A stretch of 34,002 nt of DNA from an uncultured Pseudomonadota bacterium (GTDB taxonomy: Bacteria; Pseudomonadota; Gammaproteobacteria; Methylococcales; Methylomonadaceae): NCBI GenBank assembly GCA_903928965.1, contig CAIYSZ010000036.1, positions 1 to 34,002 of the forward strand. The letters are read 5' to 3'. A program made the position numbers and the translations under genes. Under the pieces are notes generated by a model. That model searched no databases, had not been told where the DNA came from, and was given only the letters and a program-made list of their open reading frames with translations. Position 1 is the stretch's first letter. Each line of letters opens with the position of its first letter. Shown here in pieces: positions 8,352 to 33,499 of the stretch.

Positions 8352-8975
8352 TTACTTCTTATATTCCCCGGAACGCAATTTATCCTCATAGTCCTGCAAA
8401 ATATTCTCCATCTCCACGCTGTTAAACTGCAATAGCGGCTCATCCTGCAACAACCCGGCGATAGTTCCCTTGGTATTATAGCGCTCCAACAAATCCTTGC
8501 CGGCCTCATACAATTTCACGTTATGCTCGGTACAAGTGCTTAACTGCTGCGTGGTCGCCTCATGCTGCTGCTTCAACAACGCCAACTCATTAGACAACTC
8601 ATTCTTGGACTGATTCAACGCCTTATATTTATCAATCACCTCCAACAATCGAGCGGTGGTTTTATCCAAGCGATCCTTGGTTTCGTCATTTGTTGACTTC
8701 TGCGCCGCCAAATCGGTATTCAACTGCTCCTTGGCTGCCTCGGCCGCCGCCGCCGCCTTAGCGCTATCCTTTTTCAACTGCTCCAACTCCGTGGTCAACT
8801 TAGCGCTCTCCGTCTTCGCCGCGTCACGCTCGCTGGTAATGCTCTTCAGCGTGGCCTGCAATTTTTGCAGCGCCGCATCGCCTTTATCCCGTTGCGCTGC
8901 GGACAAAGGCTGTAGCAGACCCAAAACGCCCAGCGCCAAGAAACATCCGACAGACAAAATATTATGTTTATTCAT
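8352..8975 (-). CDS. Periplasmic coiled-coil protein of the TonB/porin operon
   Basis: A 207-residue protein I cannot assign to a named family. It has an N-terminal signal peptide (about residues 1-26, ending SA-AQ) and then a long, highly charged helix (about 30-150) rich in Lys, Glu, Ala and Gln with heptad-like leucines, which predicts a coiled coil. A short globular tail follows, containing LLERYNTKGTIAGLLQDEPLLQFNSVE in outline. The gene starts 9 bases after the porin stop and is probably translated from the same mRNA. The likely location is the periplasm, as a spacer or scaffold for the porin or TonB-like protein. Small coiled-coil proteins are found at the same place in related exbB-exbD-tonB-porin clusters, but a biochemical role is unknown. 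Confidence 0.8.
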   Translation of the reverse strand: MNKHNILSVGCFLALGVLGLLQPLSAAQRDKGDAALQKLQATLKSITSERDAAKTESAKLTTELEQLKKDSAKAAAAAEAAKEQLNTDLAAQKSTNDETKDRLDKTTARLLEVIDKYKALNQSKNELSNELALLKQQHEATTQQLSTCTEHNVKLYEAGKDLLERYNTKGTIAGLLQDEPLLQFNSVEMENILQDYEDKLRSGEYKK

Positions 8976-8984
8976 AAACTTAGC

Positions 8985-10733
8985 TTAGAAACGGGTATTT
9001 AAATCCATCTGCATCACATCCATGTTCCATTGCGGACCGGTAATGATACTGCCGGCCATCCAGCGCCCGGTCAACCAAACGTTACGCATCAACGCATAGT
9101 TTCCGCCAACCAGCCAACCCTTCACGTTGGTGCCGCCGTTATGAAAATCGGAATCCGTGTAAGCGTCCAACACCGCGTCCCGTTCCACATACCGGTAACC
9201 GCCAAACACGTTCCAATTGCCGAAATGGTGTAACTTGGTCCAGCCGAAATCCACCTTAAATTGCCAAGCAATCGTCTTCGGAGCGTAATCGTTGCCGTAA
9301 TTGGCCAAAACAATAGTCCGATTCGCATCATAACCGATGTTTTTCGCGAAATCGCCGCTAAACTTAACATGCAGCGGCGAAAACAAGGCCAAATCGTATA
9401 ACACGTTAAAATCCAAAATCTTATAGTCTGTCGCCAAACCGAACAACCCAGGGCCCGTCACCACGCCATTAGACACGATGTTACACAAACCGATCAAACT
9501 ATTACCGCCTTGCATAAACTGCGGCACGGACTGCTGCACGTCACCGCTGTTATTGGCGCAATTTCCTTGACCGGTGGTGTTCGTCACCCCTTTCATATTC
9601 TGATAATCATAATAAGCGGCGCCGAATTTAAAGTTATCCTGATTGTCGAATGCCCATTCCAAACCGGTTTGCCCGCCGTACAGCCATTTATCGCGCGAAC
9701 TTAAGCCATTGATCAAGTTAGCGGTCTGTAACGGAAAAATACCCGCGGTAGCATAAAACACCGGCCCAGTGCTACCCACGTCATCCGCCAAATCCGAGTT
9801 AGACAATTTTTTCCGCGCCGTCGCCGAAAAACCCTCGAACGACAAATCCTCGTCCCACACCACCTCGCTGCCGGCGGTAAAAAACGGATTGATCGTACGG
9901 CCGCCCAATACGCTCAGCCAATTGAAATTATTTTCATCGAACAAGTTATAGCGCAAATAAGCCCGATCCAAGTTAAACTGATACTGCGCCCCGGTATTGC
10001 CCAAGGTTTGGTTGGTGGACACCGGGTTAGGCGTGTTACCGGTCGCCAAACGAATGCCCGCTTCAAGGTTTTTCGCCACGTCAACATCTATCCCCAACCG
10101 GAAACGCTCCCGAGACACGTTCCTATCCTGAGTAGTGTTATACAGCGCATTCACCCCGGCGGCGGAGATACCGTTCCCCTGGGTGTTCAAGGTCTGAAAA
10201 TTGTAATAATAAGGCGTCTTGGCATTATCGATATTGGTCGGGTCCATGAAATTGGACTGCTCCCGCAAGCGCAAATCGCCGGACATCTTAAACCGCTTGG
10301 TCCATTCGGGCAAAGCGCCGGGCAAACCCCATTGCTCCTGCTTCGCTTTTTGCATCACATCGCCCACAACCTCTTCACGCAATTCATTACGCACTTGTTG
10401 CCGTATCTCGTCCTTAACAAAATCCGGAACATAGGAAACCCGCACTTCATCCGCCGGAACCTGCGGCGCGGCAACGCCGCCCCCTCCCGCCGCGCCGCCG
10501 GAAGCGGATTTATTCGCGGCGCGCGCCTCGGCGACCTGCCTGTCCGCATCGACTTCCGCCTGCTTAATCATTTCATTGGCCATTTTATCGCTCAAAATGC
10601 CCTGCTTTACCAATTGCTTGATCAAATTGGTGGTGGTATTGCGCAACTTAAGCAGCTCTTCCTTTTCATCCGCTTGCGCTACGCCAATCAGCCCGGATAG
10701 CAGCAACGCCATCAGCTGTGTCTTGTTCGCCAT
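8985..10733 (-). CDS. Putative outer-membrane porin
   Basis: A protein of about 582 residues with a signal peptide (residues 1-21, AQA-DEK), then a helical segment (about 25-125) that includes KLRNTTTNLIKQLVKQGILSDKMANEMIKQ. A long beta-rich region follows, with alternating aromatic strands, and ends in Phe after LNTR, the C-terminal signature read by the BAM complex. This is the layout of the putative porin family (porin_5 type), with an N-terminal helical region for oligomerisation and a barrel of roughly 16 or more strands. The ATG at 10733 has AGG 8 bases upstream and starts the signal peptide; longer starts would overlap tonB. It lies 20 bases after the tonB-like gene and before the coiled-coil gene. 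The solute is unknown, and no TonB-dependent-receptor plug domain is visible. Confidence 0.85.
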   Translation of the reverse strand: MANKTQLMALLLSGLIGVAQADEKEELLKLRNTTTNLIKQLVKQGILSDKMANEMIKQAEVDADRQVAEARAANKSASGGAAGGGGVAAPQVPADEVRVSYVPDFVKDEIRQQVRNELREEVVGDVMQKAKQEQWGLPGALPEWTKRFKMSGDLRLREQSNFMDPTNIDNAKTPYYYNFQTLNTQGNGISAAGVNALYNTTQDRNVSRERFRLGIDVDVAKNLEAGIRLATGNTPNPVSTNQTLGNTGAQYQFNLDRAYLRYNLFDENNFNWLSVLGGRTINPFFTAGSEVVWDEDLSFEGFSATARKKLSNSDLADDVGSTGPVFYATAGIFPLQTANLINGLSSRDKWLYGGQTGLEWAFDNQDNFKFGAAYYDYQNMKGVTNTTGQGNCANNSGDVQQSVPQFMQGGNSLIGLCNIVSNGVVTGPGLFGLATDYKILDFNVLYDLALFSPLHVKFSGDFAKNIGYDANRTIVLANYGNDYAPKTIAWQFKVDFGWTKLHHFGNWNVFGGYRYVERDAVLDAYTDSDFHNGGTNVKGWLVGGNYALMRNVWLTGRWMAGSIITGPQWNMDVMQMDLNTRF

Positions 10734-10753
10734 TTTGATACCTGTAGTCAATA

Positions 10754-11419
10754 CTAAATGCGTGAAGAAATTTTCAATTTAATGGGTTGCGGCATGCCGG
10801 GCGGCGGCGGTTCGTTAACCTTTTTCAATTTATCCAACAACCGGCTTATCAAATCATCAATTTCGGGATCGTTACTGCCCTTGGCCAGATCAATACGTTC
10901 CACCGTACCGTCCGACTTCAGCCAAATTTTCACGATCGCGGTATAAGCCTTGCGCCGCAGCTCGTCGTGGCTAGTCAATAAAGACGCCACATCATTCTTA
11001 ACCATTGAGCCATAATGAGCGTAAGGATCACCGCCGCCGCCGAACAAGCCGGTCCCGCCCTTGCGCGCGGCCAAGCCAAAACTATCCGACCCCGCGGTCC
11101 CTTCCGCATCCAAGCCCAAATCGCGGGCCGGCGCCTCGTCCGGCGTATCCGGAATCGGCTTATCTTCTTCCTGCGGCTCCGGATCCTCAATCTTCTCCTT
11201 CATTTCCGGCTCGGGCGGCTTCTCAATCTTCGGCGGCGGCGGGGGCGGCGGAGGCGGTTTCAATATGGTAATCGGCTGAATCTTCTTCTCGTTTTTCGCC
11301 GGCTTATTGACCAAAAACCCTCTAATCACTATAAAAATGGCCACACTCGCGATTATCAGCAACGCCACGCCAATAATCTTCGGAATATAAACCCGGAAAT
11401 GTTTTTTTTGCGAACTCAT
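10754..11419 (-). CDS. tonB: TonB-like energy transducer
   Basis: Inner-membrane anchored protein of about 221 residues with the TonB layout. A short basic cytoplasmic N-terminus is followed by one membrane helix (about residues 11-36), then a rigid Pro/Glu/Lys-rich stretch starting with nine consecutive prolines. A Gly-rich linker comes next, and a C-terminal TonB/TolA-like alpha-beta domain (about 145-221) with RRKAYTAIVKIWLKSDGTVERI. It would transmit proton-motive force from ExbB-ExbD to an outer-membrane partner. The ATG at 11419 begins MSSQKKHF; an upstream GTG at 11428 is possible. The gene follows exbD by 32 bases and precedes the porin by 20, so the porin is the obvious candidate partner even though it lacks a recognisable TonB-dependent plug. 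Confidence 0.85.
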   Translation of the reverse strand: MSSQKKHFRVYIPKIIGVALLIIASVAIFIVIRGFLVNKPAKNEKKIQPITILKPPPPPPPPPKIEKPPEPEMKEKIEDPEPQEEDKPIPDTPDEAPARDLGLDAEGTAGSDSFGLAARKGGTGLFGGGGDPYAHYGSMVKNDVASLLTSHDELRRKAYTAIVKIWLKSDGTVERIDLAKGSNDPEIDDLISRLLDKLKKVNEPPPPGMPQPIKLKISSRI

Positions 11420-11451
11420 GTCAACCACTTGATCATTAATGACTTGACCAA

Positions 11452-11856
11452 TTACTTAACCAAATTCTGCGTAACCAAACCGATTTGCGTGATATCCAAC
11501 TTACCCAACAAGGCAAGAATTTCCACCACGTTTTGGTACTGCACCGTGGCGTCGCCTTTCACCACCACCGGCAATTCCGGATTCGCCGCCTTATACTGCA
11601 TCAAAGTCGATTCCAACTGCTCCTTGGTCACCGGATAGGTATCCAAAAAGATAGTGCCGTCCGCGGTCACGGTAATCGCCTTAGTCTGCGGCTTAGCCAA
11701 ACTCGGCGCATTGCTGGCTTTCGGCAAATTAACCTGAATCCCCTGCACCGCCGCCGTGGTCATCAAAATGAACACCACCAACAATACATAAGCCAAATCC
11801 AGCATCGGCGTCACGTTAATTTCATCGTACGCGGCGTTTTCTTCTTGAACTTTCAT
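11452..11856 (-). CDS. exbD: ExbD/TolR-family proton channel subunit
   Basis: A 134-residue ExbD/TolR protein. A short cytoplasmic N-terminus leads into the signature DEINVTPMLDLAYVLLVVF, containing the conserved protonatable Asp20 at the start of the single membrane helix (about 18-36). The periplasmic domain (about 60-130) has the usual VTADGTIFLD and VVVKGDATVQYQNVVEIL elements. It pairs with the ExbB fusion encoded 58 bases upstream and the TonB-like protein downstream. The family couples proton flow to mechanical work at the outer membrane. The start has a weak GAGAT Shine-Dalgarno. Confidence 0.93.
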   Translation of the reverse strand: MKVQEENAAYDEINVTPMLDLAYVLLVVFILMTTAAVQGIQVNLPKASNAPSLAKPQTKAITVTADGTIFLDTYPVTKEQLESTLMQYKAANPELPVVVKGDATVQYQNVVEILALLGKLDITQIGLVTQNLVK

Positions 11857-11914
11857 ATCTCAATTAACCCAATAATAAAGTAGCTAACGCCGCGCTTAAG
11901 GCCGGCGGCATGGC

Positions 11915-13711
11915 TTACTCGCTATGCTGCTCGGCCAGCAATGCCAGGAATTCATCCACGAACACCTGCATGTCGGCGCTAATCACCTTGATCTTACTGC
12001 CTAAATAGTTGTAACCGAACAAGGCCGGAATCGCCACCGCCAAACCGCACACCGTGGCGGTCAACGCCGCCGCGATACCGGGAGCGATAGCATTCACGTT
12101 CACCTCGCCGCTCACCGCAATCGCCGCGAAAGTAATCATTACCCCCACCACGGTGCCCAACAAACCAAGAAACGGACCGCCGGAAATCGCGATGGTCAAC
12201 AACACCATCTGTGAATTTAATTTTTGCAATTCGCGCACCATCACCCCGTCCATCGAGGCCTTCACCGCGCTCAAGGATTGCGGAGACAGCACTTGATCAT
12301 TCACGCCAACCGCGGTGGTATGCCCGTTAATCCGTTTATTGATTTCTTGCACCCCGGTATGATATACCCTGTAGATGCAAGAGCCGGCGAACTCGGCATG
12401 ATTACCGGTCAACGACAACAACAACGGCGACTCGTCGAAATCAGCGGCGTCGGGGTCATCTTCATGATCCAAGCTCGTAATATCGTTGGAGCCTAGCTTG
12501 GCGTATGCCTCCTCGAACTTTTTGTTCTCTTTTTCCGTGCGGCCCAACACAATAGCCTTGCTGATCATCACAATCCAACTGATGATAAACATCACGCCCA
12601 AAATCCCGATCACCACCCAACCGTCAACGGTTACGTTGTTCAAGGTGGCCACGAAATAAGACTCGCCCTCGCCTTCGCTATCCGGCGTGGCGTCCTCGCC
12701 ATAAGTAATCACGCCATCGGACGGCCCTTCCATCACGGCCGCGAATTGCAACGCATTCTGATCCAAGGCGGTCTTATGCAAGCTCAATTCATCGATAGCC
12801 CCAGCCAAACCCCGCGAACCTTCCAAGGCCGAACCGATTGTGATGTCGCCGTCGCACACCGACAACAAATCAGGCGGTAAAATGCCTTGCGGCTTGCCGT
12901 CCACATACAAGGTAAAACCGTTGGCGGCGGCTGAAACCGCTAGAAAATGCCAACCGGCCAAATTCAAACCCACCGGGCTCAGCAATTCCTTGCCGCTGAC
13001 TTGCAACACCGGATTCTGCCCGCGCACCGCCAAAGTCAATCTGTCGCGTTGAAAAACCACGCCCTCGGTCTGCGCCTGATCAATTTTCACCCAAGCCGAA
13101 AAAGTCCAGCCGACGCTGGTTTGCATCGCAATCGCCGGGCTAGAGGCGACGCGGATTTGCTGAGAACCGTTAAACGCCGCCGCCGCGCCCGCCGCGCCGC
13201 CTTCCAGAGGCGTACTGGTGGCCAATGCCGGCTGATTATTATAGGCCGTGGCGTCATGCACCGGGCCATCCTCAAAATGGTAGGTCAACAGGGTATTCAC
13301 GTCGAAAATCGCCGCCGGCTCGGAAGCCTCCACCGCTTTCTGATTACCGTAATACATCCAGATAAACGGCTCACTGGCGTTGGCTACCTCCTTGGACAGC
13401 TTCACCCAAATCAACGCCATTTCATTCACAGTGTCAATTTTTTCGATGTAAAACTTCAACGGAGTCTTATCATCGCCGGCCATAAAGCGAATATCCTTGC
13501 CTTTATCGCCCAAATCCGCAAAATAAGTGAAATTGCCGGTATGCAACCTCACCAACGCCAAACCGTCCACCGGTATTTTCACCGCATCCTGCTGCAACTT
13601 TTGCGCGTCTATGCTGATTTTCTTCCGGTATCCCCAATCCTCGTTCCACCAAGCGTGGGCGTGCATGGGCAGTAGGAACCAACCCAGTAAAATGCTAATG
13701 AATAGTTTCAT
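11915..13711 (-). CDS. exbB: ExbB/MotA/TolQ proton channel fused to DUF2341 and LamG-like domain
   Basis: A 598-residue composite protein. Residues 1-20 are a signal peptide (AHA-WW). Residues about 21-130 match the DUF2341 pattern (WWNEDWGYRKKISID at the start, FIWMYYGN at the end). Residues about 140-335 form a concanavalin/LamG-like domain, with YHFEDG, WTFSAWVKI, WHFLAVS, LYVDGK and GAIDELSL. A membrane helix follows at about 364-388. The MotA/TolQ/ExbB module with two further helices (about 495-580, GGPFLGLLGTVVGVMITF and GIAAALTATVCGLAVAIPALFGYNY regions) ends the protein. The extra domains must be periplasmic, placing a carbohydrate-binding-like fold on a proton channel. It is first in the exbB-exbD-tonB-porin-coiled-coil unit. 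DUF2341-ExbB fusions occur in other proteobacteria, but the ligand is unknown. Confidence 0.88.
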   Translation of the reverse strand: MKLFISILLGWFLLPMHAHAWWNEDWGYRKKISIDAQKLQQDAVKIPVDGLALVRLHTGNFTYFADLGDKGKDIRFMAGDDKTPLKFYIEKIDTVNEMALIWVKLSKEVANASEPFIWMYYGNQKAVEASEPAAIFDVNTLLTYHFEDGPVHDATAYNNQPALATSTPLEGGAAGAAAAFNGSQQIRVASSPAIAMQTSVGWTFSAWVKIDQAQTEGVVFQRDRLTLAVRGQNPVLQVSGKELLSPVGLNLAGWHFLAVSAAANGFTLYVDGKPQGILPPDLLSVCDGDITIGSALEGSRGLAGAIDELSLHKTALDQNALQFAAVMEGPSDGVITYGEDATPDSEGEGESYFVATLNNVTVDGWVVIGILGVMFIISWIVMISKAIVLGRTEKENKKFEEAYAKLGSNDITSLDHEDDPDAADFDESPLLLSLTGNHAEFAGSCIYRVYHTGVQEINKRINGHTTAVGVNDQVLSPQSLSAVKASMDGVMVRELQKLNSQMVLLTIAISGGPFLGLLGTVVGVMITFAAIAVSGEVNVNAIAPGIAAALTATVCGLAVAIPALFGYNYLGSKIKVISADMQVFVDEFLALLAEQHSE

Positions 13712-13801
13712 ATTTTTCTCTAACCAAAGCTTCCTTTCAATTATGACAAGTAATTTTTACATTAATATGACTTAGACGGCTACCGGAAAAAATGCCAAGA
13801 A

Positions 13802-13820
13802 AACCGCGCCTTCCGCGTTT
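13802..13820 (-). terminator. Possible terminator between tpsA and exbB
   Basis: On the minus strand CGCG and CGCG flanked by A/T pairs form a short hairpin with one mismatch, followed by TTTTCTT. It lies in the 164-base gap after the tpsA stop and would separate the tpsBA unit from the exbB unit. The stem is short. Confidence 0.4.
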
Positions 13821-13875: not shown

Positions 13876-16800
13876 TTAATCACCGTAGCCGATCAACTCC
13901 ACGGTCAGCAAACTCAAGTTCGCATTCGTCTTAGAGTTTGACTTACCGCTGGATTCGTCCTCCATGGCCGATTGAGCCACCTGACTGACGCTAGCGCCTA
14001 AATTACTGGCGCCGGTCAAACCTGCCGCCAAACTTGAGGTCGAAGCTTGCGGCACCCCGGTGCCGACGCCGCTAAAGGAAATGTTTTGCGCGCCCAAAAC
14101 CGCGGTGGCCGAAATCGTCACGTTTTTACCGGCGATACCGGCCTCGGCCGCATTGACCACCCCGTTCGGCGCGAACAAAGACACGTTGCCGGGCGAAGCG
14201 CCCTCGGTGCGGATACCGCTGCCGGAAACGCCAGGCTGTTGCTGATACGTTAAATCGCCGTTTACGTATACGCCCACCACCGGCGGCGCGACCAGCGCGG
14301 TTTTCGCGCCCTTGCCGGCATTGATATTCCCGTTGGAGGACCAAATCATGATATCGCCGCCATCCAAGGTAAACACCCGCGAGGTATTCACCGTAAAATC
14401 GTTGTTAACGACCGCGTTGACCGAGCCCTGACCGTCGGCAATCACGCCCAAATCATTCGCACCTTTTGTCAAGCCGCTAAAACCGACCGCCACCGCCAAA
14501 CCGGTGTCCACCCCGCCGCCTGGGGTTAATAGATTGATATTCCCCCCGCTTACCGTTTGCAGCGTACTGAAATACATAGCCATGTCGCCTTGCCAAGCGG
14601 AACCTGGGAACATGGCGCCGATAGCGCCGTAACCCAGACTATTACCCAAGGCCTTATCGCTAGCGGAAGCAGAGCCGTTAATCAAAATTTCCTGATACAG
14701 CAGCGGCAACAACAAATTGTTCAACTGCATCGCCAGCGGCTGAATTTGATCGTTGCTTAAGGCTCTGAAATCGGAAACCGTCTGCGCGTCGTTCTTATAA
14801 ACATAACCCGGCGTTTGCTGCATAAAATTAACGATAAGCGCCGTGGCCGCCGTCTTGGCTTGCTCGAATTCCGGCAACAAAGCCTGATACTGCGCAATGG
14901 TGGACTTGTAAATGTTCAACTCTTGCGAACTGGCCCCGTTAGAAGCCAACTGCGCCTCGTTTTTGATCAACTGGGCGATATAAGCCTGCAAGCTTAGATC
15001 GCTATTCATAAAATCAACAAAATCCTGTTTGCCGCTAAATTGGCTCGATCCGAACAGCGTACTATCTGAAATCAAGCCGCCCTTTGCAATATCACCCGTC
15101 AAGGCAGTATTTAAAGTGACCGTATTCCCGGAAATTTTAGTAATCACAGAACCGGCGGCCAAACCGGAGCCGCTCAAAACATCCCCCGCTTGCAAGCCGA
15201 AAACGTTGGTCAGCGTTAATTGTTCACTGCCCTTGGCGGCGCTTTGACCCAGCGTAAATTGGCCGGTCGAGCTATTTTGCAAGCCGGCGACCGCCGTGAT
15301 GCTGGCCCCATTGTTCACGTCGGCCAAATAAGTGCCCGGCGCATCCTTGGTGGACTGCAACACCAGCGCCCCTGATTGTATCCCCGCGCTCAGCGGCGTA
15401 TTCAAGGTCACCGTATTCCCGGAAATTTTAGTAATCACCGTACCATCGGCCAAACCGGAGCCCGTCAGTTGTTCTCCGACCAGCAAGCCGCTACTGGATT
15501 GCAAATTCAACACCGTATCACCGGCGCGCGCGGTTCCGGCCAAGAAATAACTTGAGGCGCTATCCGACACCGAGAAGACCGAACCCGAGTCTATCGCCGC
15601 GCTTGGAGAAGCGCTCAAAGTCACGGTATTGCCTTTGATGGCGGTAATACTGGCGGTAAAACCGGTAGACAAGCTCGTCAATTGCTGACCCACCACCAAA
15701 CCGGTCGTGTTCAGCAACACTAATTGATTGGCGCTCGTCCCTAGATTAGCGGAACTGACGAAATACGGCGTAATCAGCGCCGAATTGGTCGTGGCAACAT
15801 TGTTTACTAAAGGGCCATTTTTATCCCCGACCGTAAGCAAACCGCTGGAAGCGCCCAAATCCAAATTGCGTCCGGTTTCCACTAGCACGTCGCCGGGACC
15901 CGCCACTTGAATTTTGTTCGGATTATTGATGATGGTTCCGGTAAAGGAAGACAACTGAGTTGGATAAATCAAATCCCTGCCGGCGTCAAGAATAGTGGTA
16001 TCGCTATTGTGTATGTTTTGCACCGACAGATTGATGTTGCTGATATCCTGTCCCGCTTGAATCACCGCCATTTTCGGCAAATTAAAGCCTATATTTTTGA
16101 TGTCGCCCTGTTTGGCGATCACCTTCACCGGCTTTAAATCATTCACGTGCAACGGCGTATCGCTGGCGTCGCTAGCGTGATTGCCACCCAAGAAATTGCC
16201 TATATTATTCAAGACGCCGGACGGGTTAGGATTCAATAGGGTCGGCAGCCCGCCCACGGACGCATTCACGGAATAATCCGACATCAGCAAAGTATCAATA
16301 CTCAGTGAATTGGCGGAATAAATGCTTTGATCGGCAAACAAATTCAATTGCCCGACCGAGGACGGGAACATGGTCAAGGCGCTGTTCAAAATGATATTGC
16401 CGCCGAAAGCCGTGGCCGCCAGATTGGCCGGATACACTTGAGTAATGTCCGCGCCGCCGTTAAGATTGATATCGCCGGCTATGGTTTTAGCCGCCACCCC
16501 GCTGGCGTCGGTATAACTAAAAAACGAACTGCTGGACGGATAATAATTGGTTTTTAAATATAAATCTTGCATTCCCGTCATCGGATCGGCCACTCCGCCC
16601 AGGCTTATCCCATTATTGGCGTTAACGTAGAATTGCGTGTCTCCGCTATATAATTGCGGGCCGTCGCTCCAAGCCCCGTTTGCCCCCGCCCCCACCTGGC
16701 CTTGCGCGGAAATAGAGGCCTCGCCCTTGCCCAAATAATAGCTGCCGCCCTGAATGTCCCCGCCGGCGCTGATCGTCATCACCCCGCCGCCTTCGATATC

Positions 16801-25800: not shown

Positions 25801-25995
25801 CGCTTTTTCAGAATGCTGGTTAACAAACAAAGTATTGCCGACTACATGCTCCTCAGCTCTACCGTAACCTACAAAGGCAGCGTCGGGAACCGGCAGCGTC
25901 GGCTCCGCCGCCAAGCTGGCGCCTGCGAATAAACCGCTAAAGATCGCGGTGCGTATGCCCGCCGTAATCGGCTTCAATCTGAAAACTGTTTCCAT
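13876..25995 (-). CDS. Giant two-partner secretion exoprotein TpsA (filamentous haemagglutinin, DUF3739 type)
   Basis: A secreted protein of about 4039 residues, the largest in the window. A conventional signal peptide (about 1-30, SLA-AEP), without the extended ESPR type, precedes the TPS haemagglutination domain (about 35-290). There the usual NPNG motif appears as YDQNGFEF, preceded by VLNRIF. A very long beta-helix-like region of Asn/Gly/Ser/Thr repeats follows. Seven degenerate modules of the type GxGxxxGTxIxxIxGNTVTL interrupt it, at about residues 1772-1830, 2384-2594 (three) and 3422-3644 (three). The C-terminal 300 residues match the DUF3739 pattern (GGNINLLTPGGGVDTGLAV, FTLDGGDIMIWSSNGNINAG in outline). 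No CdiA-like toxin tail or VENN motif is visible. The ATG at 25995 is preferred over a GTG at 26001; the Shine-Dalgarno is weak. It follows tpsB by about 85 bases. It is probably an adhesin or surface fibre; the ligand is unknown. Confidence 0.93.
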   Translation of the reverse strand: METVFRLKPITAGIRTAIFSGLFAGASLAAEPTLPVPDAAFVGYGRAEEHVVGNTLFVNQHSEKAILNWDSFNVPKGDTVQFVQPDGSAIVLNRIFDNSGSPAQILGHINANGEVYLYDQNGFEFSKDSTVDVNSLVVSTLNISDAVFKNSNIADAYDTNKAAALDNGNSKESLSTSITIDKGALLQAAKSGRIIVAAPTVENNGTVQTGAEGQILLVASQDKVYLQPHSTSYGAWNGLLVEVGSGGNVSNNGLLALRQGNITLAGFAVNQSGRINSTTSVNINGSVRLQAGEGLSTDANFAANGTSAEITALNTSRGAGAGNAATVTLAKGSQINISPDSDNSTSLDSAAKPQSIVDVSGLLADFQAGSVVRAPGAQVNIDVSDEISGKVFANDSRIYMDNQAIIDVSGLKGVKIAADRDVVPISVESFELRNSPLQLSGILKGQTVYVDTRQTTQIIDTSKAAANITRGIDERMTQGGQINFNSANGDVIVNSGAQLSVAGGSLAYQSGYIHTTSLINQMGQIVNISQANPNVKYTGIYGQITQTSAKWGTKQVWDAVDQASMQYMPAYTQGESAGGVSINAGALAWSGSLSAGVVSGAYQRGLSQTPEGGSFLVNLTGTNAANETQNAVFQSDAVNIALNAGCSTTLCSTSASLPSVIFDSSLTNQSGVQKFTLTTTQGSVNFAQGNTLNLANGASLSVSAAQITMDSQIRAAGGAVALTATGSNANGNVILGSNAGIDVSGRWINDQQALQANGAQENDPLYIQGGSVILNAANQVSVPQGASINADGGAWVNSNGALTAGGGGSIDIENSGANGDAMVLQGTLSAYGLQQDGSLTLGNNNIVIGQHEAGDPAGALTLGVSNGAFNFAQQLGFNTITLKGNVGSSTGNITVKSGVNLDLQSENRVLASHYLNQPTGASIQDFSSIALSPESSRPTPVLNLMGGDSTMTLQKNSSIAVDMSSASSQSAINLTTQGSIYADGALSAPGGQISMQINPVPADPYKPAQAIWVGADASLSVKGAARLNPTDGLGRVTGQVLNGGDISINVERGYAILQQGSTLDVSGASQSLSILQPGGDSGAPSAATLSDVASNAGNIKISAAQGAVLDGQLIGHAGSSSTLGGALEIDATNLTSPPDPTVQATFPTSPLTFEVAQSSQAILGSGAAFGASLDAQGVEGKFYLSADKVNNGGFADLTLYAPAADSSVNFNGGVNLSTTAQITLDAANMSWSAGNNSASDTVTLTSPYMVLGSSYNRNVSGASVQGGGDFTANASYIQLQGASLWSGFSSVNLNSAHDLRAVGELVNQQNFLGELSTAATLNLSASQIYPATLSNFTFSSTGSSGANGAINIKGANTDVSPLSAGGSLTFQAATIDQAGVVKAPLGSITLSASNTLTLEKNSLTSVSAAGLLIPFGVVQGGVNWLYPLTAGQNQIISTPPTKEILLQAPDIQQNTGSVVDLSGGGDLFGSEFKPVATDVADFFTPGSTGTSAYDGSFAVIPSLNSALAPYDPNFMSSWSDANGINYALGSEVHLSASQYLPAGDYTILPAYYALLPGAYLVTPQANTQDQTLTTYSASGLPIVSGYELLAGTSAQSARASGYQVESSVQVLENHPEYEVFCAGQCGDTLAQSETQLNAAGATTLAANMAAAYNYLLNQSLLTQNFFATQAAANNASTPLLPVDNGQISVAAQSSLSLNGTLITSSKGRGARMDISATNIEVVHNLSGAAAAPGVLQILDSNLASFKVDSLFLGGNRTTNEDSYALSAPAASGGNTLTLNSAIGWAVNDDISGPGIADGAYITSINGDTVTLNKPLTESLAAGTSITDLNPVLVDGATNAFVTAQNVSFDSNVTLTEPDLVVAAVNNITVDGVNNNAANGAIGPGAQLTASSSQGVNTGDTQYNLIGDSAFLRLSADNQVSINRVNYNGAGGATGDLSIAAGAVLTAEKSMALDGSQGVQLAGSIAAGGNASPPVGDVYINAGQENINIGDAALVNSLSNALNLSNDLLAGLNLNQLSLNTAGSVNFYGNVGSQQSPLTFNNLQINASALIGNGSTGQAVNLHAENFTLQGSSASSTPTAGVQSFNLEATKTITITGGNVGFSGFNSVTLTADNQFKVSGTSTLTIAATTHLNSGYFSTSNGADLNVNVTSGHALNVGRVGTLSNVSPDALGGALNLQADAINFNAYALLPAGNLTLSAQGNGANQDVAIGANADIDLGGRTVYYGTSVDYANGGNFTAKSANGVVYMAGGSSVNVASGGGSAAAGTLTFDAANQSVIIDSKAAINAAGGSASFDVNDFSHSYSQDASHETSSFDQLVQVLNQAGVTGELDFRVRNDAISAGAGDVINARTVNLTADQGSVTYAGQINADGLTGQYTLSAAADKGGDQLTVANVSGLEIGDSLSGAGLAANTVITGISGHTVTLSSALTGALSAGAAISDGSLWVANHSITSLDETQSNVVGVASIAGLTQGDVLSGAGLPVGTEISFLPNKQTTLNGVTDYWLVLSDTPTTALTAGAQFSDASSGASVTLAAHDNTWMPSNTITLDSVSGLQVGQHLVGAGLAENTTITGISGNTVTLSALPLASAGNSDGSVVQAAAKVAAVDAARVTQVDAGSVNIYAGGGITLAQGAVISAQSAWGKGGQVLLSSLTAPSAAGGVALDSGSSILVGGSSDVKGGQVTLRALRTGDGTDTPYGVNITNLAGTVSGYSSFTVEAVRQYGNQDIDIAGMPAGWIDNVIPQIQTDTAAYMAGASIAGLTAQYANLNFMPGVEIDYNGPLSLNNTWDLSSWRYNNGQVGDLVIRSTGGVTFNASLSDGFQSGNFTGAKSASGVQVVDQLMQGASWSYTLTAGSDLSSANPNATLTGAGNLTVGNADAVDANDPQVAIRTGTGNMHLNAGQDIVIRGNGTVYSAGQESSAQPFGNLTDSDVSTYFLVEYPINGGEISLHAAGDVIGAVSGTDYNNWLLALCCNPVSSTVTSIYQPTAWGVVLGYVPNSNTQIYNAGGPAFQENIGSFGGGNVTIKAGGNITNLELAMPSTGKPVGSTTTPIKSGVTTPHLKNFTSNVVDIEGGGVMTISAGGDIQGGSYYLGKGEASISAQGQVGAGANGAWSDGPQLYSGDTQFYVNANNGISLGGVADPMTGMQDLYLKTNYYPSSSSFFSYTDASGVAAKTIAGDINLNGGADITQVYPANLAATAFGGNIILNSALTMFPSSVGQLNLFADQSIYSANSLSIDTLLMSDYSVNASVGGLPTLLNPNPSGVLNNIGNFLGGNHASDASDTPLHVNDLKPVKVIAKQGDIKNIGFNLPKMAVIQAGQDISNINLSVQNIHNSDTTILDAGRDLIYPTQLSSFTGTIINNPNKIQVAGPGDVLVETGRNLDLGASSGLLTVGDKNGPLVNNVATTNSALITPYFVSSANLGTSANQLVLLNTTGLVVGQQLTSLSTGFTASITAIKGNTVTLSASPSAAIDSGSVFSVSDSASSYFLAGTARAGDTVLNLQSSSGLLVGEQLTGSGLADGTVITKISGNTVTLNTPLSAGIQSGALVLQSTKDAPGTYLADVNNGASITAVAGLQNSSTGQFTLGQSAAKGSEQLTLTNVFGLQAGDVLSGSGLAAGSVITKISGNTVTLNTALTGDIAKGGLISDSTLFGSSQFSGKQDFVDFMNSDLSLQAYIAQLIKNEAQLASNGASSQELNIYKSTIAQYQALLPEFEQAKTAATALIVNFMQQTPGYVYKNDAQTVSDFRALSNDQIQPLAMQLNNLLLPLLYQEILINGSASASDKALGNSLGYGAIGAMFPGSAWQGDMAMYFSTLQTVSGGNINLLTPGGGVDTGLAVAVGFSGLTKGANDLGVIADGQGSVNAVVNNDFTVNTSRVFTLDGGDIMIWSSNGNINAGKGAKTALVAPPVVGVYVNGDLTYQQQPGVSGSGIRTEGASPGNVSLFAPNGVVNAAEAGIAGKNVTISATAVLGAQNISFSGVGTGVPQASTSSLAAGLTGASNLGASVSQVAQSAMEDESSGKSNSKTNANLSLLTVELIGYGD
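15070..15735 (-). repeat. Three consecutive TVTL modules in TpsA (C-terminal cluster)
   Basis: Three related coding repeats at about 15565-15735, 15355-15525 and 15070-15235 share the pattern (Gly-Leu)-x-x-Gly-(Asp/Gln/Glu)-x-Leu ... Gly-Leu-Ala-x-Gly-(Ser/Thr)-Val-Ile-Thr-Lys-Ile-Ser-Gly-Asn-Thr-Val-Thr-Leu. The last two are nearly identical in their core (KISGNTVTLNT), and their DNA shares runs such as CCCGGAAATTTTAGTAATCA, which suggests recent duplication. Confidence 0.8.
18220..18850 (-). repeat. Three consecutive TVTL modules in TpsA (central cluster)
   Basis: Related modules lie at about 18677-18850, 18435-18625 and 18220-18380. The outer two have ITGISGHTVTL and ITGISGNTVTL cores. 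The middle one is diverged (EISFLPNKQTTLNGVTDYW in its core) but keeps the flanking GDVLSGAGLPVGT and LTAGAQFSD parts. A seventh, solitary copy is at about 20515-20685 (ITSINGDTVTL). Confidence 0.75.
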
Positions 25996-26081
25996 AACCA
26001 CAACATCTTATCTTTAGACGACGCTAACCGCCGAACACGCCTCGCAAGGCGCATAAGCTTGCAAAAACCTCAAAGCCGGCA

Positions 26082-27761
26082 TTAAAACTCCGTAACCACG
26101 GAAAAATGCATCCGCGGCTCGCCGCTTTTCACCGGCGCCAAAGCCACGAAAGGAAAACCCAAATCCAAGGCGCCGCTCAGCTTTTTCCATAAACTAAATG
26201 AAAAACCGAACCCGGCGCTATATAAATCATAACCTTTCGGATTTCCGGCCAAGGGGCTAATAACCCACCCGCGCGCCGCGTCCACGAAGGCCGAGGCCTT
26301 CAGCCGGTTTAAAAAATCCCATTCCAAGGGCGCCAGATGCGGCGACAAAAACTCAAGAGATCCTAACACCGCTTCATCGGCCAAGGCCTGCGTTTCAAAA
26401 TAGCCACGCACCGTGGTGGCGCCGCCCAAGGAAAATTGTTCGTTACTGATCAACGGCGAATTAGTGGTCTGGCCGGCGATATGCGTTTTCACCAGCATGC
26501 CGTACGGTAAATCGTACTGATATTTAAAATCGCCGGTTAAATACATAAAATCGGCTTTCGCCAAATGACGTTTGTTCTCGAACTGCGCCGGATCGCTGAC
26601 GATGCCGCTAACCCCGAAATGCATCGCCAAATCCATGCTGCCGGTGTAATCCTTACCGCGCAAGTTTCCGCTATATTGCGCCAAAAACGGCATATAGGTA
26701 ATCGGCGTAGAAATACCGTTCGCATTCAGCACTTTTAAATCTTCCTTGAAATGCTTGTAATCCATGCCTAGGGTAGCGCTATGGAAATACGTCTCCAAGG
26801 CCTTGAATGGCGTCACGTAGCGCGCGCCGAAGATATCCCCGTTGCCGATCACCGTCGTTGCGCCGGCGCTGGCGACTTGCGAACTGGAATTCGAGGACAC
26901 GCCGTAAAATACCAGCCGGCTACCCTGTTCCGCCAGCGGAATGGCGTAAGTGCCGGCCCAAACATCCACCTCCGAATTATTTTCCGGCGACACCTGATAC
27001 ATAACCGAGGCGCTGTGCATTTGTTGCCATAAATTATCGTAACGCAAGGAATTGACCAGCCTCAGACGCGAGGTGGTTGAAGTATTTCGGCCGTTGAGTT
27101 CAACCCGGGCATGCAACGGCAACTCGTCCTTCACTTTCAAATCCACTTCCAAGGTGCCGGGCGTGTCGCCGGCGCGCAACACCGGCTGAATTTGCCGGTC
27201 GGGGGATTGCGCCGCCAAATCCGCCAATTGTTTTTGCATTTTCGGCATATTCGGCACGTTCCCTTCCGCCAATTCAGGAATCGCCTCCTTGATTTTACCC
27301 AAGGAAAAATAACGCGAATCCTTAACCCTGAGCCGGGTAATCTTGCCTTCCACCACTTGCAAATAAACCACGCCGTTTTTGACGTCCTGCTCCGGAATGT
27401 CCACCGCCACGGTTTGAAAACCTTGCGCGTGATAAGCGTGTTCCAAGGCGGCGCGGGCTTTATCCACGTCGTCCAGGGTTTTATGCGGCCCTAAAAACGG
27501 GTAAATCGTCCGTTCCACCACGCCTTTTTCCAGAGTGACCGCGCCTTTAATCCTCAATTCCCATAAATCGAATTGATTAGCGGGATTCTGCTCCTGCGCG
27601 CCACCCCGCGCGCTTTCCGCCGAAGCGGTTTTATCGCCTGACCCGCTCTTCGGCGCATTTTCTTCGCCTGCCGCGTCCGCGTAGGCCTGACATGGCCAAG
27701 TGAAAGCCAGAGCCAACAACCAACCGCCAAGTGTGCTTGATCGAATTTGCTTTAACTGCAT
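26082..27761 (-). CDS. TpsB outer-membrane transporter (ShlB/FhaC/HecB family)
   Basis: Outer-membrane partner that secretes the adjacent TpsA. A signal peptide (about residues 1-30, ending AYA-DA) precedes a low-complexity linker and then two POTRA domains. The first (about 65-140) begins ELRIKGAVTLEKGVV and includes GFQTVAVDIPEQDVKNGVVYLQV. A 16-strand barrel follows, with the loop-6 VRGY motif in GGATTVRGYFET and a terminal Phe after VVTE. About 559 residues is normal for FhaC. The frame remains open to an ATG at 27794, but a perfect TATAAT at 27804-27809 would leave that start almost leaderless, and the ATG at 27761 begins a better signal peptide; I therefore prefer 27761. tpsA follows in the same orientation, so the pair forms a tpsBA unit with its own promoter. 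Confidence 0.92.
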   Translation of the reverse strand: MQLKQIRSSTLGGWLLALAFTWPCQAYADAAGEENAPKSGSGDKTASAESARGGAQEQNPANQFDLWELRIKGAVTLEKGVVERTIYPFLGPHKTLDDVDKARAALEHAYHAQGFQTVAVDIPEQDVKNGVVYLQVVEGKITRLRVKDSRYFSLGKIKEAIPELAEGNVPNMPKMQKQLADLAAQSPDRQIQPVLRAGDTPGTLEVDLKVKDELPLHARVELNGRNTSTTSRLRLVNSLRYDNLWQQMHSASVMYQVSPENNSEVDVWAGTYAIPLAEQGSRLVFYGVSSNSSSQVASAGATTVIGNGDIFGARYVTPFKALETYFHSATLGMDYKHFKEDLKVLNANGISTPITYMPFLAQYSGNLRGKDYTGSMDLAMHFGVSGIVSDPAQFENKRHLAKADFMYLTGDFKYQYDLPYGMLVKTHIAGQTTNSPLISNEQFSLGGATTVRGYFETQALADEAVLGSLEFLSPHLAPLEWDFLNRLKASAFVDAARGWVISPLAGNPKGYDLYSAGFGFSFSLWKKLSGALDLGFPFVALAPVKSGEPRMHFSVVTEF

Positions 27762-27803
27762 GAATATCGGAAATAAGGAGAATAAGCAGCGCATTAGCGC
27801 GAT

Positions 27804-27809
27804 ATTATA
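27804..27809 (-). promoter_or_regulatory. Candidate -10 element of tpsBA
   Basis: TATAAT on the minus strand sits between the terminator of the upstream gene (27860-27891) and the tpsB coding region. It predicts initiation near 27797 and a leader of about 36 bases to the ATG at 27761. No good -35 hexamer is seen at 16-18 bases, so an activator may be needed. Confidence 0.45.
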
Positions 27810-27859
27810 CGAATTTTACCGGCGAATTATTACCTTAATGTGAAACGCCACTAAAGCAA

Positions 27860-27891
27860 AAAGACCAACCATCTTACAATGGTTGGTCTTT
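27860..27891 (-). terminator. Rho-independent terminator after the PBP-like gene
   Basis: A perfect 13-bp stem (27860-27872 with 27879-27891) has a 6-base loop, and on the minus strand a T-rich tail follows (TTTGCTTT). It lies about 65 bases beyond the stop of the secreted PBP-like gene. The stem is AT-rich at its base and can work in both directions, although no plus-strand gene precedes it. Confidence 0.8.
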
Positions 27892-27956
27892 GCCAGCTTC
27901 GTCCTTGATTCAAAGCAGCCTAACGGCCGCCGCCCTAAACCTGGGCCAACCTGATA

Positions 27957-29654
27957 TTACAGGCTGATGTATGGATATACAGTACCGCCGCCTGGGTTCC
28001 AAACGGTTGGTACGCGGCAATTGTCGCCGGTTACACCGCTAGGAGCATAGGTGAACTGATTGACCGGGTTGGTTGGGTCAAACAAAGTAGCTTGGTTGGA
28101 TTGCACGGTTGCTGGGTACAAGCTTGGGTGAGCCAAGTAAGCGCCGGCAACTGAACTGCTTGCATCAAACGAGTGAGTCAAGGTTGGGTTCAAGGCAGCC
28201 AAAACAACTGGATGGTTGGCTTTGCTGATGATTTCATTGCGCAACGCAACTACGCCGGCGTTGGTGTTAGGCGCGTGATTGGTGTTGTATTGGAAAGTGT
28301 TTTCCACCCAGTCATGATACTTGCCGGTAACGACGTTGGCCAAGGTAGGCGCCACGCCGTCGATTTTCACGAATTGGTAGTTAGAACTAGATGAAGTGGT
28401 TTGCTCCAAGGAGTTCAAGCCAACAGCCCAACGTGCGCCACCAGTAGAGCCAGTTGAGAAAGCGTTAGCAGCGTTGGCGGAAGTTGCCAAGGTAGGGTCG
28501 GAATTGCCCAAATCCAATGCTTTCAAAGCGGTATTGATGTTGCCGGCGGAGCTTTCGTCATGAATGATGTAACCTGCGCCGCTTTCGGTTTGACCATTGT
28601 CGTCGGCAGGCGCGGAAGCAGTGCTATACGCACCCAAATCGCAAGGATAGTTGAAGAAATGGATGCCGTGTTGCGCTTGAGAGCCTGAACCAGCAGCGCG
28701 ACGCACGATATGCGGGTTGGTGGTGGCTGGAGAATATTGCGAATAGTTCGCGGCGGTCCAGGTAGCCAAGTCGGTGCCCAAATTGCCAACCAATACCAAG
28801 CCCCAGTCAAAAATCGCGCCAGAGTGCAAGCCTGCGATCAACGCGGAAGACAGGGAAGGCGTGCAAGCCTCGGAAACGCTGGTGCCAACCACGCAAGAGC
28901 TTGGCAATTGGCCGGTCGCGATTTGCGCGGCTTGCAAGGCCCAGAACAATTTAGACGTCACTTGCTCGCCGAATACCACGGTAGCGGTGGATTGGATAGT
29001 CATGGAAGCCAAGCCGGCTTGAGTAACAGCATTGAAACCGCTGGTTACGTTCAAGCCCACAAATTTACCCGGGTCAACGTCGGACACGCCCAAGTCAACG
29101 GTAGAGGCGGTGGCGTTGGTCAAGGTTGGGATCGGGCCGCTAGGCGCGGTGCACAAATAGTTGTACAAAGTGCCGCCGCCAGCCAATGCGGTGGTGCCGT
29201 TGTTGCCGCAGTTGCTGTTGGCAATGTTCAGGAAACCAATTTGCAAGGCAGGGTTGATGATGGGAGCAACACCGTAGTCGGAACCGCCGGCGCTACGTTT
29301 GTGTATCAACAAATGGGTAGCGGCGCTGCTCAAATTGGTGTTGGCGCTTTGTTTGGTGCAATACCATACATCGTAGTTTTTACCGATGGAGCCTGGGCTT
29401 GAGGTGCTGTTGTCGGCCCAGTAGTAAATAGGTTGGGTTTGATCGCAAACTTGCAAGTTGGTGGCCAAACCGGTATTAGCGGTAATCAAGGTGCTAATGT
29501 AAGCACGCTCGGCTGAAGCGCCGCCGATAAACAATGGGGTGGTGGTGGATGGGTCAACTACCGGAGCGGTAGCGGTGCCGATACCGGTAAACGCGGCGCT
29601 GGCGTCAGCGGCGATAGCCGCCAAAATAGCGATAGACAATAATTGCTTTTTCAT
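27957..29654 (-). CDS. Secreted periplasmic-binding-protein-like protein
   Basis: A 565-residue exported protein with a clear signal peptide (about 1-20, ASA-AF). The mature part resembles the phosphate/PstS-type substrate-binding fold. FIGGASAERAY near the N-terminus sits where PstS proteins have their first anion-binding Gly/Ser loop, DLGVSDVDP matches the usual GVSD segment, and RRAAGSGSQAQHG resembles the central RxxGSGT loop. Several Cys residues (in VCDQTQP, WYC, SNCGNN, SSCVVG, SEACTP, YPCDL, DNCRVP) suggest disulfides. An AAGGA lies 9 bases upstream of the ATG. Codon use (frequent GCT, GGT, CGT) differs from neighbours in the way typical of strongly expressed genes. It lies downstream of the VPxPA-tailed gene and upstream of tpsB. 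The fold assignment is tentative and the ligand unknown. Confidence 0.75.
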   Translation of the reverse strand: MKKQLLSIAILAAIAADASAAFTGIGTATAPVVDPSTTTPLFIGGASAERAYISTLITANTGLATNLQVCDQTQPIYYWADNSTSSPGSIGKNYDVWYCTKQSANTNLSSAATHLLIHKRSAGGSDYGVAPIINPALQIGFLNIANSNCGNNGTTALAGGGTLYNYLCTAPSGPIPTLTNATASTVDLGVSDVDPGKFVGLNVTSGFNAVTQAGLASMTIQSTATVVFGEQVTSKLFWALQAAQIATGQLPSSCVVGTSVSEACTPSLSSALIAGLHSGAIFDWGLVLVGNLGTDLATWTAANYSQYSPATTNPHIVRRAAGSGSQAQHGIHFFNYPCDLGAYSTASAPADDNGQTESGAGYIIHDESSAGNINTALKALDLGNSDPTLATSANAANAFSTGSTGGARWAVGLNSLEQTTSSSSNYQFVKIDGVAPTLANVVTGKYHDWVENTFQYNTNHAPNTNAGVVALRNEIISKANHPVVLAALNPTLTHSFDASSSVAGAYLAHPSLYPATVQSNQATLFDPTNPVNQFTYAPSGVTGDNCRVPTVWNPGGGTVYPYISL

Positions 29655-29692
29655 AGTCTTAGTCCTTAATACTTAGTGGTGTTTTAAAAATC

Positions 29693-29718
29693 CCGCCGGC
29701 AAGCTCGCATGCCGGCGG
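29693..29718 (-). terminator. Intercistronic hairpin/attenuator after the VPxPA-tailed gene
   Basis: A perfect 9-bp GC-rich stem (CCGCCGGCA, 29693-29701, with TGCCGGCGG, 29710-29718) has an 8-base loop. On the minus strand GATTTTTAAAAC follows, a good U-run. It lies in the 87-base gap between the two secreted-protein genes, so it should terminate part of the transcription and set the ratio of the two products. Confidence 0.8.
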
Positions 29719-29741
29719 AAGGTACTGCGATAAGCCTAGGC

Positions 29742-30482
29742 TTATTTTTGACGACGGTTCAAACCTAACAAGCCAATCAAACCAGTGCCGAACATCCATA
29801 CAGCGGCAGGAACTGGAGTAGCATAGGTCAAAGTATCACCAGTCACACTCCAATAGCCCAACCAAGTGTTGGTTTCGGTGAAAGTTTTGTGGATACCGCT
29901 TCCGGTGGTGACGCCGGTCACGTTATAAAAGCTAACTTGGGAGCCATAAGATGCAGCCACGTTTTGACCGGTGCCCCACAGATTGCTAAAGTTGGAGCCT
30001 AGAGCACTGCTATCGCTCGCCCAACCGCCCAAAGCGGCGTTGGCGTCGGTTACCAACGCGCTATCGCTGCTTGCGGTCAAGCTTTGGTTAACGCGAGAAA
30101 CATCCAATGAGATACCGGTTGCCGCGCCTGACAATTGAGTACCGCTAGAATAAGAAGGGGTAGCGGTATTGGTGTAATCAATGGCGGTCAGGTTTTGAGC
30201 GGCGACAGCAAAAACAGCGCCGTCGTTTGTCAAGTTTGCGTTATTGCCGCCGGTGAAAGTAACCCAATTTGGGTCGCTTGCCAAGTTAAAGGTAAATTGT
30301 GAATGAGTCGGAGCGGAAGCGTAATTAAAGCCAAACGCGTCATCCAAGTTCAAGTCATAGGTCAAGCCTTTGACTGGGTCATAAACGGACAAGAAAGCTG
30401 AAGTAGCGTTCAAATCCGCGGCTTGCGCCATGGAAGCGCCGGCCAACAAGGACGCGGCGATCAAAGATTTAGTAAATTTCAT
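29742..30482 (-). CDS. Exported protein with VPxPA/PEP-CTERM-type sorting tail
   Basis: A 246-residue protein with a signal peptide (about 1-21, AQA-AD), a Ser/Thr/Asn-rich beta-type body and a C-terminal tripartite sorting signal. The signal is the motif TPVPAAVW, a hydrophobic helix (FGTGLIGLLGL) and the basic end NRRQK. This belongs to the PEP-CTERM/VPLPA-CTERM class handled by exosortases in exopolysaccharide-producing Gram-negatives, and implies sorting at the envelope and possible release. The body has no family I recognise. A strong Shine-Dalgarno (AAGGAG, 6 bases from the ATG) and U-ending codon use suggest high expression. It is first in the block, with the PBP-like gene 87 bases downstream across an attenuator-like hairpin. 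No exosortase gene is in the window. Confidence 0.82.
   Translation of the reverse strand: MKFTKSLIAASLLAGASMAQAADLNATSAFLSVYDPVKGLTYDLNLDDAFGFNYASAPTHSQFTFNLASDPNWVTFTGGNNANLTNDGAVFAVAAQNLTAIDYTNTATPSYSSGTQLSGAATGISLDVSRVNQSLTASSDSALVTDANAALGGWASDSSALGSNFSNLWGTGQNVAASYGSQVSFYNVTGVTTGSGIHKTFTETNTWLGYWSVTGDTLTYATPVPAAVWMFGTGLIGLLGLNRRQK

Positions 30483-32518: not shown

Positions 32519-33499
<981 letters not shown>

Follow-up and report, generated by a model that had tools for sequence, protein, structure and literature searches.

The closest described counterpart of the system treated here is a gene set of the sigma-VreI (PUMA3) regulon of Pseudomonas aeruginosa, whose core comprises pdtA, pdtB, exbB2, exbD2, tonB4, PA0696, PA0697, PA0698 (YbjN) and PA0699 (PpiC); the accessible text of the paper concerned calls the tonB4 system a 'still uncharacterized putative TonB system' and PA0696 a 'putative outer membrane porin' (PMC7035377). 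According to the available portions of two further papers, the genes of this cluster share a promoter (PMC4971064), and two-partner secretion (TPS), ExbBD and PA0696 homologues occur together in several other proteobacteria, as noted in 2009 (PMC2729926). Here we describe a related module of an uncultured gammaproteobacterium of the Methylomonadaceae, a probable methane oxidiser (GCA_903928965.1, a 3.25 Mb assembly). It lies on contig CAIYSZ010000036.1 (C36), which with its 34,002 nucleotides forms the entire window analysed, and occupies positions 8352-30482 with nine open reading frames (ORFs), all on the minus strand. Like the P. aeruginosa set as annotated, the module is built around a core of TpsA, TpsB, ExbB, ExbD, TonB, a putative porin and a small protein. 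The general make-up of the gene set is thus known, though unexplained, and the window copy is a variant of it: adjacent extracytoplasmic function (ECF) sigma, FecR and STN genes, YbjN and PpiC are missing, and genes for a PstS-like periplasmic binding protein (PBP) and a VPxPA-tailed exported protein are present. The likeness is one of gene order and annotation. A literature search recognised no test of the Ton part in TPS and found nothing on DUF3739, the C-terminal domain of the window TpsA; a concrete, testable mechanism is among what is added here to the known gene set.

Compared with classic TPS systems such as FhaC/FhaB and CdiB/CdiA, the window shares a TpsA with a TPS domain and a TpsB with POTRA domains and a barrel, but adds a Ton motor and a porin, and its TpsA ends in DUF3739. 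The MotA_ExbB and ExbD/TolR subunits are common to the window and the ExbBD and TolQR motors, whereas about 330 N-terminal residues of the window ExbB form a DUF2341-LamG region.

Judged by sequence comparison, the block formed by ExbB, ExbD, TonB, porin and a small coiled-coil protein (coil) is conserved as a unit and accompanies TpsA proteins with DUF3739. This strict co-occurrence, which contrasts with ordinary TPS, is new here. It was established in a class sample of 229 and a phylum sample of 249 genomes (G000 and G107 are in both), where DUF3739 was counted above its cut-off and Porin_5 as full-length if the match covered the whole profile with E below 1e-100. Left out of the counts were class genome G223, with DUF3739 below the cut-off, and genomes with partial Porin_5 matches (17 class, 2 phylum); Porin_5 matches of any coverage occur in 33 class and 8 phylum genomes. 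In the class sample DUF3739 TpsA is found in 15 and full-length Porin_5 in 16 of the 229 genomes, both in 15 and neither in 213; the only porin genome without DUF3739 is G104, which is 85% complete and consists of 340 contigs. The phylum sample has both in the same 6 of 249 genomes and neither in 243. The corresponding Fisher values, which treat genomes as independent, are 1.3e-22 and 3.2e-12, and chance neighbourhood was rejected on the co-occurrence in both samples. The initial annotation had proposed a functional link that would be refuted if Ton-porin clusters were usually found without tpsBA; the opposite was observed, with DUF3739 in 15 of the 16 class and 6 of the 6 phylum porin genomes.

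On shared contigs of the class sample the starts of the DUF3739 and porin matches are 3.6 to 15.5 kb apart, and the nearest pairs in G313, G373 and G418 start 8.3 to 19.3 kb from each other; in G101, G200, G070 and G348 the two are on separate contigs, which are either very short or carry the match close to an end. A TpsB gene, whatever its type (ShlB, E <= 0.001), was found in 100 of the 229 class genomes, 86 of which have no full-length porin, so ordinary TPS comes without the module porin. DUF2341 occurs in 21 class genomes. ORFs of ExbB length (587-728 aa) carry it in 14 genomes, all of which belong to the 16 with the porin, and the remaining seven, including porin genome G101, have ORFs of 234 aa or more than 1000 aa; this sorting is by ORF length alone. 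From this linkage we propose a DUF3739-class TPS system with its own proton-driven motor of the Ton/Tol type, a proposition for and against which we find the scales about level.

The conservation of the block was further followed in the best 80 of 552 porin loci, mostly from Methylococcales, a set which partly duplicates the sampled genomes (L145 = G091 and L165 = G213, at least). The prevalence of this order among the nearest porins makes the host itself a probable member of it. Counting loci with enough sequence on the side needed, the fused ExbB is present in 54/54, ExbD in 63/64, TonB in 64/65 and coil in 74/75, and the C-terminus of TpsA lies near the porin in 44/49. Among the five exceptions L166, from the laboratory methanotroph Methylotuvimicrobium buryatense 5G, has at its edge an ORF that by eye resembles a tpsA N-terminus; this ORF and pbp-tpsB point away from exbB-exbD-tonB-porin-coil in that locus. 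The other four (L097, L108, L116, L161) come from genomes with a DUF3739 gene elsewhere. All 13 class loci with DUF3739 and porin on one contig have the ExbB fusion, ExbD, TonB and coil, although in G010 a distance of 25 kb separates the motor genes from the porin, and the presence of the fusion was deduced from a DUF2341 match outside the sequence read. In 11 of these 13 loci TpsB was detected (G221 stops at a contig edge and G036 has a ShlB match just outside the stretch read), and PBP also in 11, the exceptions G150 and G221 being near contig ends.

Outside this group, nine wider loci were compared: plasmid stretches of Klebsiella (L169), Cupriavidus (L170), Methylosinus (L171) and Burkholderia (L172), and loci of G313, G348, G373 (two) and G418. 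Here tpsB, exbB fusion, exbD, tonB and porin are together in nine of nine and coil in seven, YbjN and PpiC are found in six, and ECF and FecR regulators in five. The order tpsB-exbB-exbD-tonB-porin-coil-ybjN-ppiC was read from the sequence in G348 and the Klebsiella plasmid copy, and the module gene order is also kept in alpha- and betaproteobacterial copies. In the Klebsiella pneumoniae plasmid copy (L169:2100-5100) the tpsB profile matches two adjoining ORFs, and the gene may be split. Two bins titled Klebsiella pneumoniae (L152) and uncultured Bacteroidetes (L092) carry a gammaproteobacteria-like module; these bin labels may be wrong.

A second copy is encoded in the same genome on contig C28. 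It comprises a VPxPA-tailed gene, PBP, tpsA, exbB fusion, exbD, tonB, porin and coil, and its tpsB has been shifted to the far end. Identities to the window proteins are 38% for the porin, 69% for ExbD and 43% for ExbB. In a comparison of 53 loci the C28 ExbB, ExbD, TonB, porin, coil and TpsA are all nearest to the same three loci (G136, L149, L158), whereas ExbB, ExbD, TonB and coil of C36 are nearest to a Methylomonas-like set (L088, L096, L099, L102 and L109 within the first five), its porin to other Methylococcales and its TpsA mostly to Methylovulum loci. The two copies therefore belong to separate lineages: C28 behaves as one block, while in C36 the motor genes form a block and porin and TpsA are somewhat mixed. 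Distances among the five Ton-porin-coil genes correlate with r of 0.83-0.93 over the 53 loci, duplicate loci included, much of the correlation being shared species history. Contig C114 holds a third tpsA in divergent orientation to PBP and VPxPA-tailed genes, and the 38 kb read there contain neither a motor nor a TpsB match. Because C114 is cargo without machinery, and because in G418 three DUF3739 genes are accompanied by a single full-length porin gene, the module behaves as two sub-units, with TpsB, motor, porin and coil as machinery and TpsA with PBP and the VPxPA protein as cargo. Much the same arrangement is described for Rhodopseudomonas palustris and Janthinobacterium in the accessible part of PMC2729926.

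The PBP of the cargo group has no Pfam match. A weak sequence match to 1twy (6.3e-4) and a Foldseek hit of its model to a phosphate-binding protein (2.6e-7; TM-score 0.49 by target, with a mean pLDDT of only 65) agree on a predicted PstS-like fold, in line with the PBP-like label of the initial annotation. Compared with PstS phosphate-binding proteins it is longer, and no PstC/PstA-type permease adjoins it. The VPxPA-tailed gene adjoins PBP in 9 of the 13 full-length PBP loci of the class set (pattern search); in the window its tail scores 21.6 bits against VPLPA-CTERM (cut-off 25.35), and the genome has three exosortase-family matches. Both proteins, which are new as partners of the module, go with TpsA and not with the motor; at the cell surface they probably act together with the cargo.

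Their presence bears on the main rival explanation, in which the module serves energised nutrient capture: TpsA would be a surface catcher, the porin a Ton-gated uptake channel and the PstS-like protein a binder of the ligand, possibly phosphate. This would resemble haem capture by HxuCBA, where a TPS pair is likewise combined with a TonB-linked outer-membrane function in the form of a TonB receptor (PMC5422565, as far as its accessible text goes), except that the window has no TonB-dependent receptor and Porin_5 would take its place. Besides this precedent and the fold of the PBP, the phosphate-starvation control of the P. aeruginosa counterpart, reported in the available parts of PMC7035377 and PMC9769906, speaks for such a function. 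However, the 18 ORFs scanned in the window include no plugged receptor, as the initial annotation had also noted along with the absence of siderophore genes, of which likewise no family was matched, and no PstC/PstA-type permease. Matches to a Pho-box pattern are at chance level, 2 against 1.37 expected in the window, and PBP follows TpsA, as on C114, and was seen in none of the nine wider loci with the same profiles. We consider nutrient capture unlikely, if worth pursuing.

The reading as a motor-driven secretion system directs attention to the porin, which matches Porin_5 over profile positions 1-535 (E 3.9e-184). Its model (mean pLDDT 73.5) has an N-terminal helical region, a low-confidence linker and a barrel of 16 strands. 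The best fold match in the PDB is OmpM1 of Veillonella parvula (E 2.4e-14), yet identity is 14-15% and no SLH domain is found by Pfam; comparison of the porin profile with PDB sequences gave no match. Of five blocks compared in 105 aligned module porins, the region around VRVxYVPEFVK (residues 103-115) shows the strongest conservation with 3.45 bits. The pre-barrel helices reach 3.09, the barrel 2.5 and the first helices 2.45, and the linker ahead of the segment has 1.64. The strict segment pattern occurs in 99 of the 105, and at least four of the six others visibly keep the YVPE core. It is found in 0 of 14 shorter Porin_5 relatives outside the module, which were taken from the 17 partial-match genomes and of which two are incomplete at contig ends. 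Such conservation is as expected for the contact site of a periplasmic partner. The segment VRVxYVPE, apparently module-specific and new here, is predicted to be a TonB contact, TonB being the obvious candidate partner.

In the proposed mechanism TonB would span the periplasm and bind with its C-terminal domain to the module porin at VRVxYVPE, just before the barrel, and the coiled-coil protein may bridge or space the complex. TpsA would cross the outer membrane by way of TpsB, with the energised porin aiding completion, display, anchoring or release of the fibre. Concerning what the motor drives, we infer, as the initial annotation did, an energised system with TonB working on the porin or on the fibre; the step from co-inheritance to energised secretion is the one at which nutrient capture is the main rival. 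In its most explicit form the proposal is a type Vb branch across Pseudomonadota that is driven by the proton motive force, where a TonB-like rod with a DUF2341-LamG ExbB motor pulls on a module-specific porin, which it grips by a novel type of TonB box (VRVxYVPE), so that giant DUF3739 TpsA proteins are brought out, anchored or released. In this full detail it is tentative, and we would sooner expect parts of it to fail than all to hold.

The motor subunits and the fold of the porin also allow a different role, in which the outer membrane at the giant fibre would be held in place or given its shape by a Tol-like motor together with an OmpM-like porin, and the motor would stay outside transport. 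ExbB and ExbD indeed score higher against the TolQ/TolR than against the ExbB/ExbD models, though below the cut-offs, OmpM1 is titled an outer membrane attachment porin, and a coiled-coil protein is encoded next to the porin. Against such a tether, Pfam found no SLH or peptidoglycan-binding domain in porin or coil, and the partner is of the TonB type and not of the TolA or Pal type. We regard this role as improbable.

Several observations weigh against the motor-driven secretion system or against its full dedication. Three module genomes (G136, G150 and G119) also have a stand-alone DUF2341-ExbB/ExbD/TonB set, and a Methylomagnum plasmid (L168) has exbB-exbD-tonB-coil with no porin or tpsB adjoining; from the stand-alone sets it follows that the motor can serve other uses. 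An LGLDAxGxAGxDxFGL-like central motif of TonB, considered as a TPS-specific feature, was rejected as such: it occurs in 75 of 90 porin-near TonBs, but also in all five without a porin within 4.5 kb (the three stand-alone sets, L168 and G010), and the TonB type is therefore not tied to the porin. In the 53-locus comparison TpsA, represented by its last 420 residues only, tracks the motor genes less closely than these track each other (r 0.63-0.71). Furthermore, published accounts have type V secretion proceed with neither an energy source nor a gradient (PMC5422565, PMC9355242, in the portions available), PdtAB is termed a functional TPS in accessible text of PMC7035377 which leaves the Ton part unmentioned, and in zebrafish the virulence of insertion mutants in PA0695 (tonB), PA0696 and the two tps genes equalled that of the wild type under vreI over-expression (PMC2729926, accessible part). 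The last result neither supports nor excludes a role in display. Random insertion of tpsBA beside a general-purpose DUF2341-ExbB motor was rejected for the porin-bearing block; stand-alone sets nonetheless exist. The dedicated system of the initial annotation thus holds insofar as the TPS pair and the ExbB-ExbD-TonB-porin-coil block travel together, and the stand-alone sets speak against full dedication.

The surroundings of these sets are diverse. The set of G136 (L187:13018-16142) is a second ExbB-fusion/ExbD/TonB set and adjoins V-type ATPase genes, and that of G150 (L188:8905-11804) has a neighbouring ORF with only a sub-threshold match to HrpE/V-ATPase subunit E; a V-ATPase context common to both would be a guess. 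In G119 the set (L071:19050-20000 into L189:1-1894) directly follows gspD, gspE, gspF and a dsbC-like gene of a type II secretion cluster, about 25 kb from the module porin, and the ORFs after it resemble pseudopilins by eye. On the Methylomagnum plasmid (L168:11581-30386) the motor genes are followed by phosphatase genes, a radical-SAM cluster for a ribosomally synthesised and post-translationally modified peptide (CefA) and, at the edge of the stretch read, tpsA.

The existence of stand-alone motor sets would also fit genes that stay together for use under one condition and have no mechanical coupling; the sigma-VreI regulon of P. aeruginosa, for instance, includes unrelated type II secretion and phosphatase genes (PMC2729926, PMC7035377, accessible parts). 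Yet both samples, class and phylum, show the co-occurrence, as do loci without regulators, and the porin segment is peculiar to the module; we regard mere co-regulation as very improbable. What counts for the motor-driven secretion system, namely the co-occurrence, the conserved order, the copies of two lineages in one genome and the DUF3739 genes elsewhere for the four tpsA-less loci, brings it to an even footing with its negation. The porinless majority among the TpsB genomes, the distribution of the porin segment inside and outside the module and the motorless cargo on C114 are counted on the same side and with the same middling confidence.

If it is right, a kind of export thought to be motor-free may have a motor, at which the present data hint. 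Since DUF3739 TpsA was always accompanied by full-length Porin_5 in the two samples, and the motor lies beside nearly every such porin, the rule that no energy is needed becomes testable in methanotrophs, which are harmless and tractable. The 'still uncharacterized' ExbB2-ExbD2-TonB4 of P. aeruginosa would gain a hypothesis of function, and TonB-like proteins may, as is suggested here, act on outer-membrane proteins without a plug domain.

The features of the window copy are collected in Table 1. All nine ORFs of the initial annotation are present and family scans agree with their labels, which stand with the refinements that ExbB is a DUF2341-LamG-ExbB fusion and that the motor subunits have their best scores, below the cut-offs, against TolQ/TolR. 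Profile matches are 3.1e-15 (DUF2341), 6.1e-15 (Laminin_G_3) and 4.7e-26 (MotA_ExbB) for the ExbB fusion, 4.2e-28 for ExbD/TolR, 1.5e-07 for TonB_2 at the C-terminus of the TonB-like protein, 3.5e-15 (POTRA_2) and 1.3e-12 (ShlB) for TpsB, and 8.9e-16 (TIGR01901, the TPS/haemagglutinin domain, residues 69-146) and 4.4e-29 (DUF3739) for TpsA. For the coil protein the Pfam scan gave weak coiled-coil matches and nothing else.

Table 1. Position and assignment of the module features in the 34,002-nucleotide window
Feature	Position	Strand	Basis
VPxPA-tailed exported protein, 246 aa	29742..30482	-	VPLPA-CTERM-like tail, below cut-off
Terminator-like hairpin, gap between VPxPA gene and PBP gene	29691..29720	-	hairpin scan and shuffles
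PBP with PstS-like periplasmic-binding-protein fold (predicted), 565 aa	27957..29654	-	fold and weak sequence match
Terminator-like hairpin, gap between PBP gene and tpsB	27860..27891	-	hairpin scan and shuffles
TpsB, outer-membrane transporter of two-partner secretion	26082..27794	-	POTRA_2 and ShlB
TpsA, 4041 aa	13876..26001	-	TPS domain and C-terminal DUF3739
DUF3739 domain of TpsA	14050..14361	-	profile match
ExbB/TolQ-type proton channel subunit	11915..13711	-	N-terminal DUF2341-LamG domain and MotA_ExbB
ExbD/TolR	11452..11856	-	profile match
TonB-like protein	10754..11428	-	proline-rich linker and TonB C-terminal domain
Porin_5	8985..10751	-	N-terminal helical region and 16 predicted barrel strands
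Porin pre-barrel segment VRVSYVPD (consensus VRVxYVPE), candidate TonB contact	10422..10445	-	computed from residues 103-110
Exported coiled-coil protein (coil), 207 aa	8352..8975	-	ORF and Pfam scan

The two hairpins are strong, have T-rich tails and deviate from shuffled sequences with z of -3.8 (VPxPA-PBP gap) and -6.6 (PBP-tpsB gap), and the scan listed none in the 164-bp gap between tpsA and exbB. About three transcripts, the number also proposed in the initial annotation, therefore fit, the last possibly being tpsB-tpsA-exbB-exbD-tonB-porin-coil, in which the gaps from exbB through exbD, tonB and porin to coil are 58, 23, 2 and 9 bp. Rfam and tRNA scans of the window gave nothing, and promoter matches were at chance level.

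Module TpsBs, compared with those of classic TPS, often have little sequence before POTRA1. An N-terminal plug helix H1 with a linker is given as a TpsB criterion in the accessible text of PMC9355242; by a crude estimate of the signal peptide, 26 module TpsBs have a median of 19.5 residues between signal peptide and POTRA1, against 54 in 12 hand-picked others, of which 3 are also short. The window TpsB has 55 residues by the same crude estimate. A missing plug helix as a module trait is a trend only.

The module is flanked by ordinary chromosomal genes, with dnaG, yqeY, tsaD, an FtsX/ABC pair and a GDSL lipase on one side. On the other, genes with Dak2 (31791-32456) and Dak1 (32519-33511) domains adjoin the module side by side on opposite strands. 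The window TpsA contains repeats of the form GxxLSGxGLAxGTVITxISGNTVTLNxxL, with three strict copies at residues 2401, 3509 and 3606 and further degenerate copies recognised by eye.

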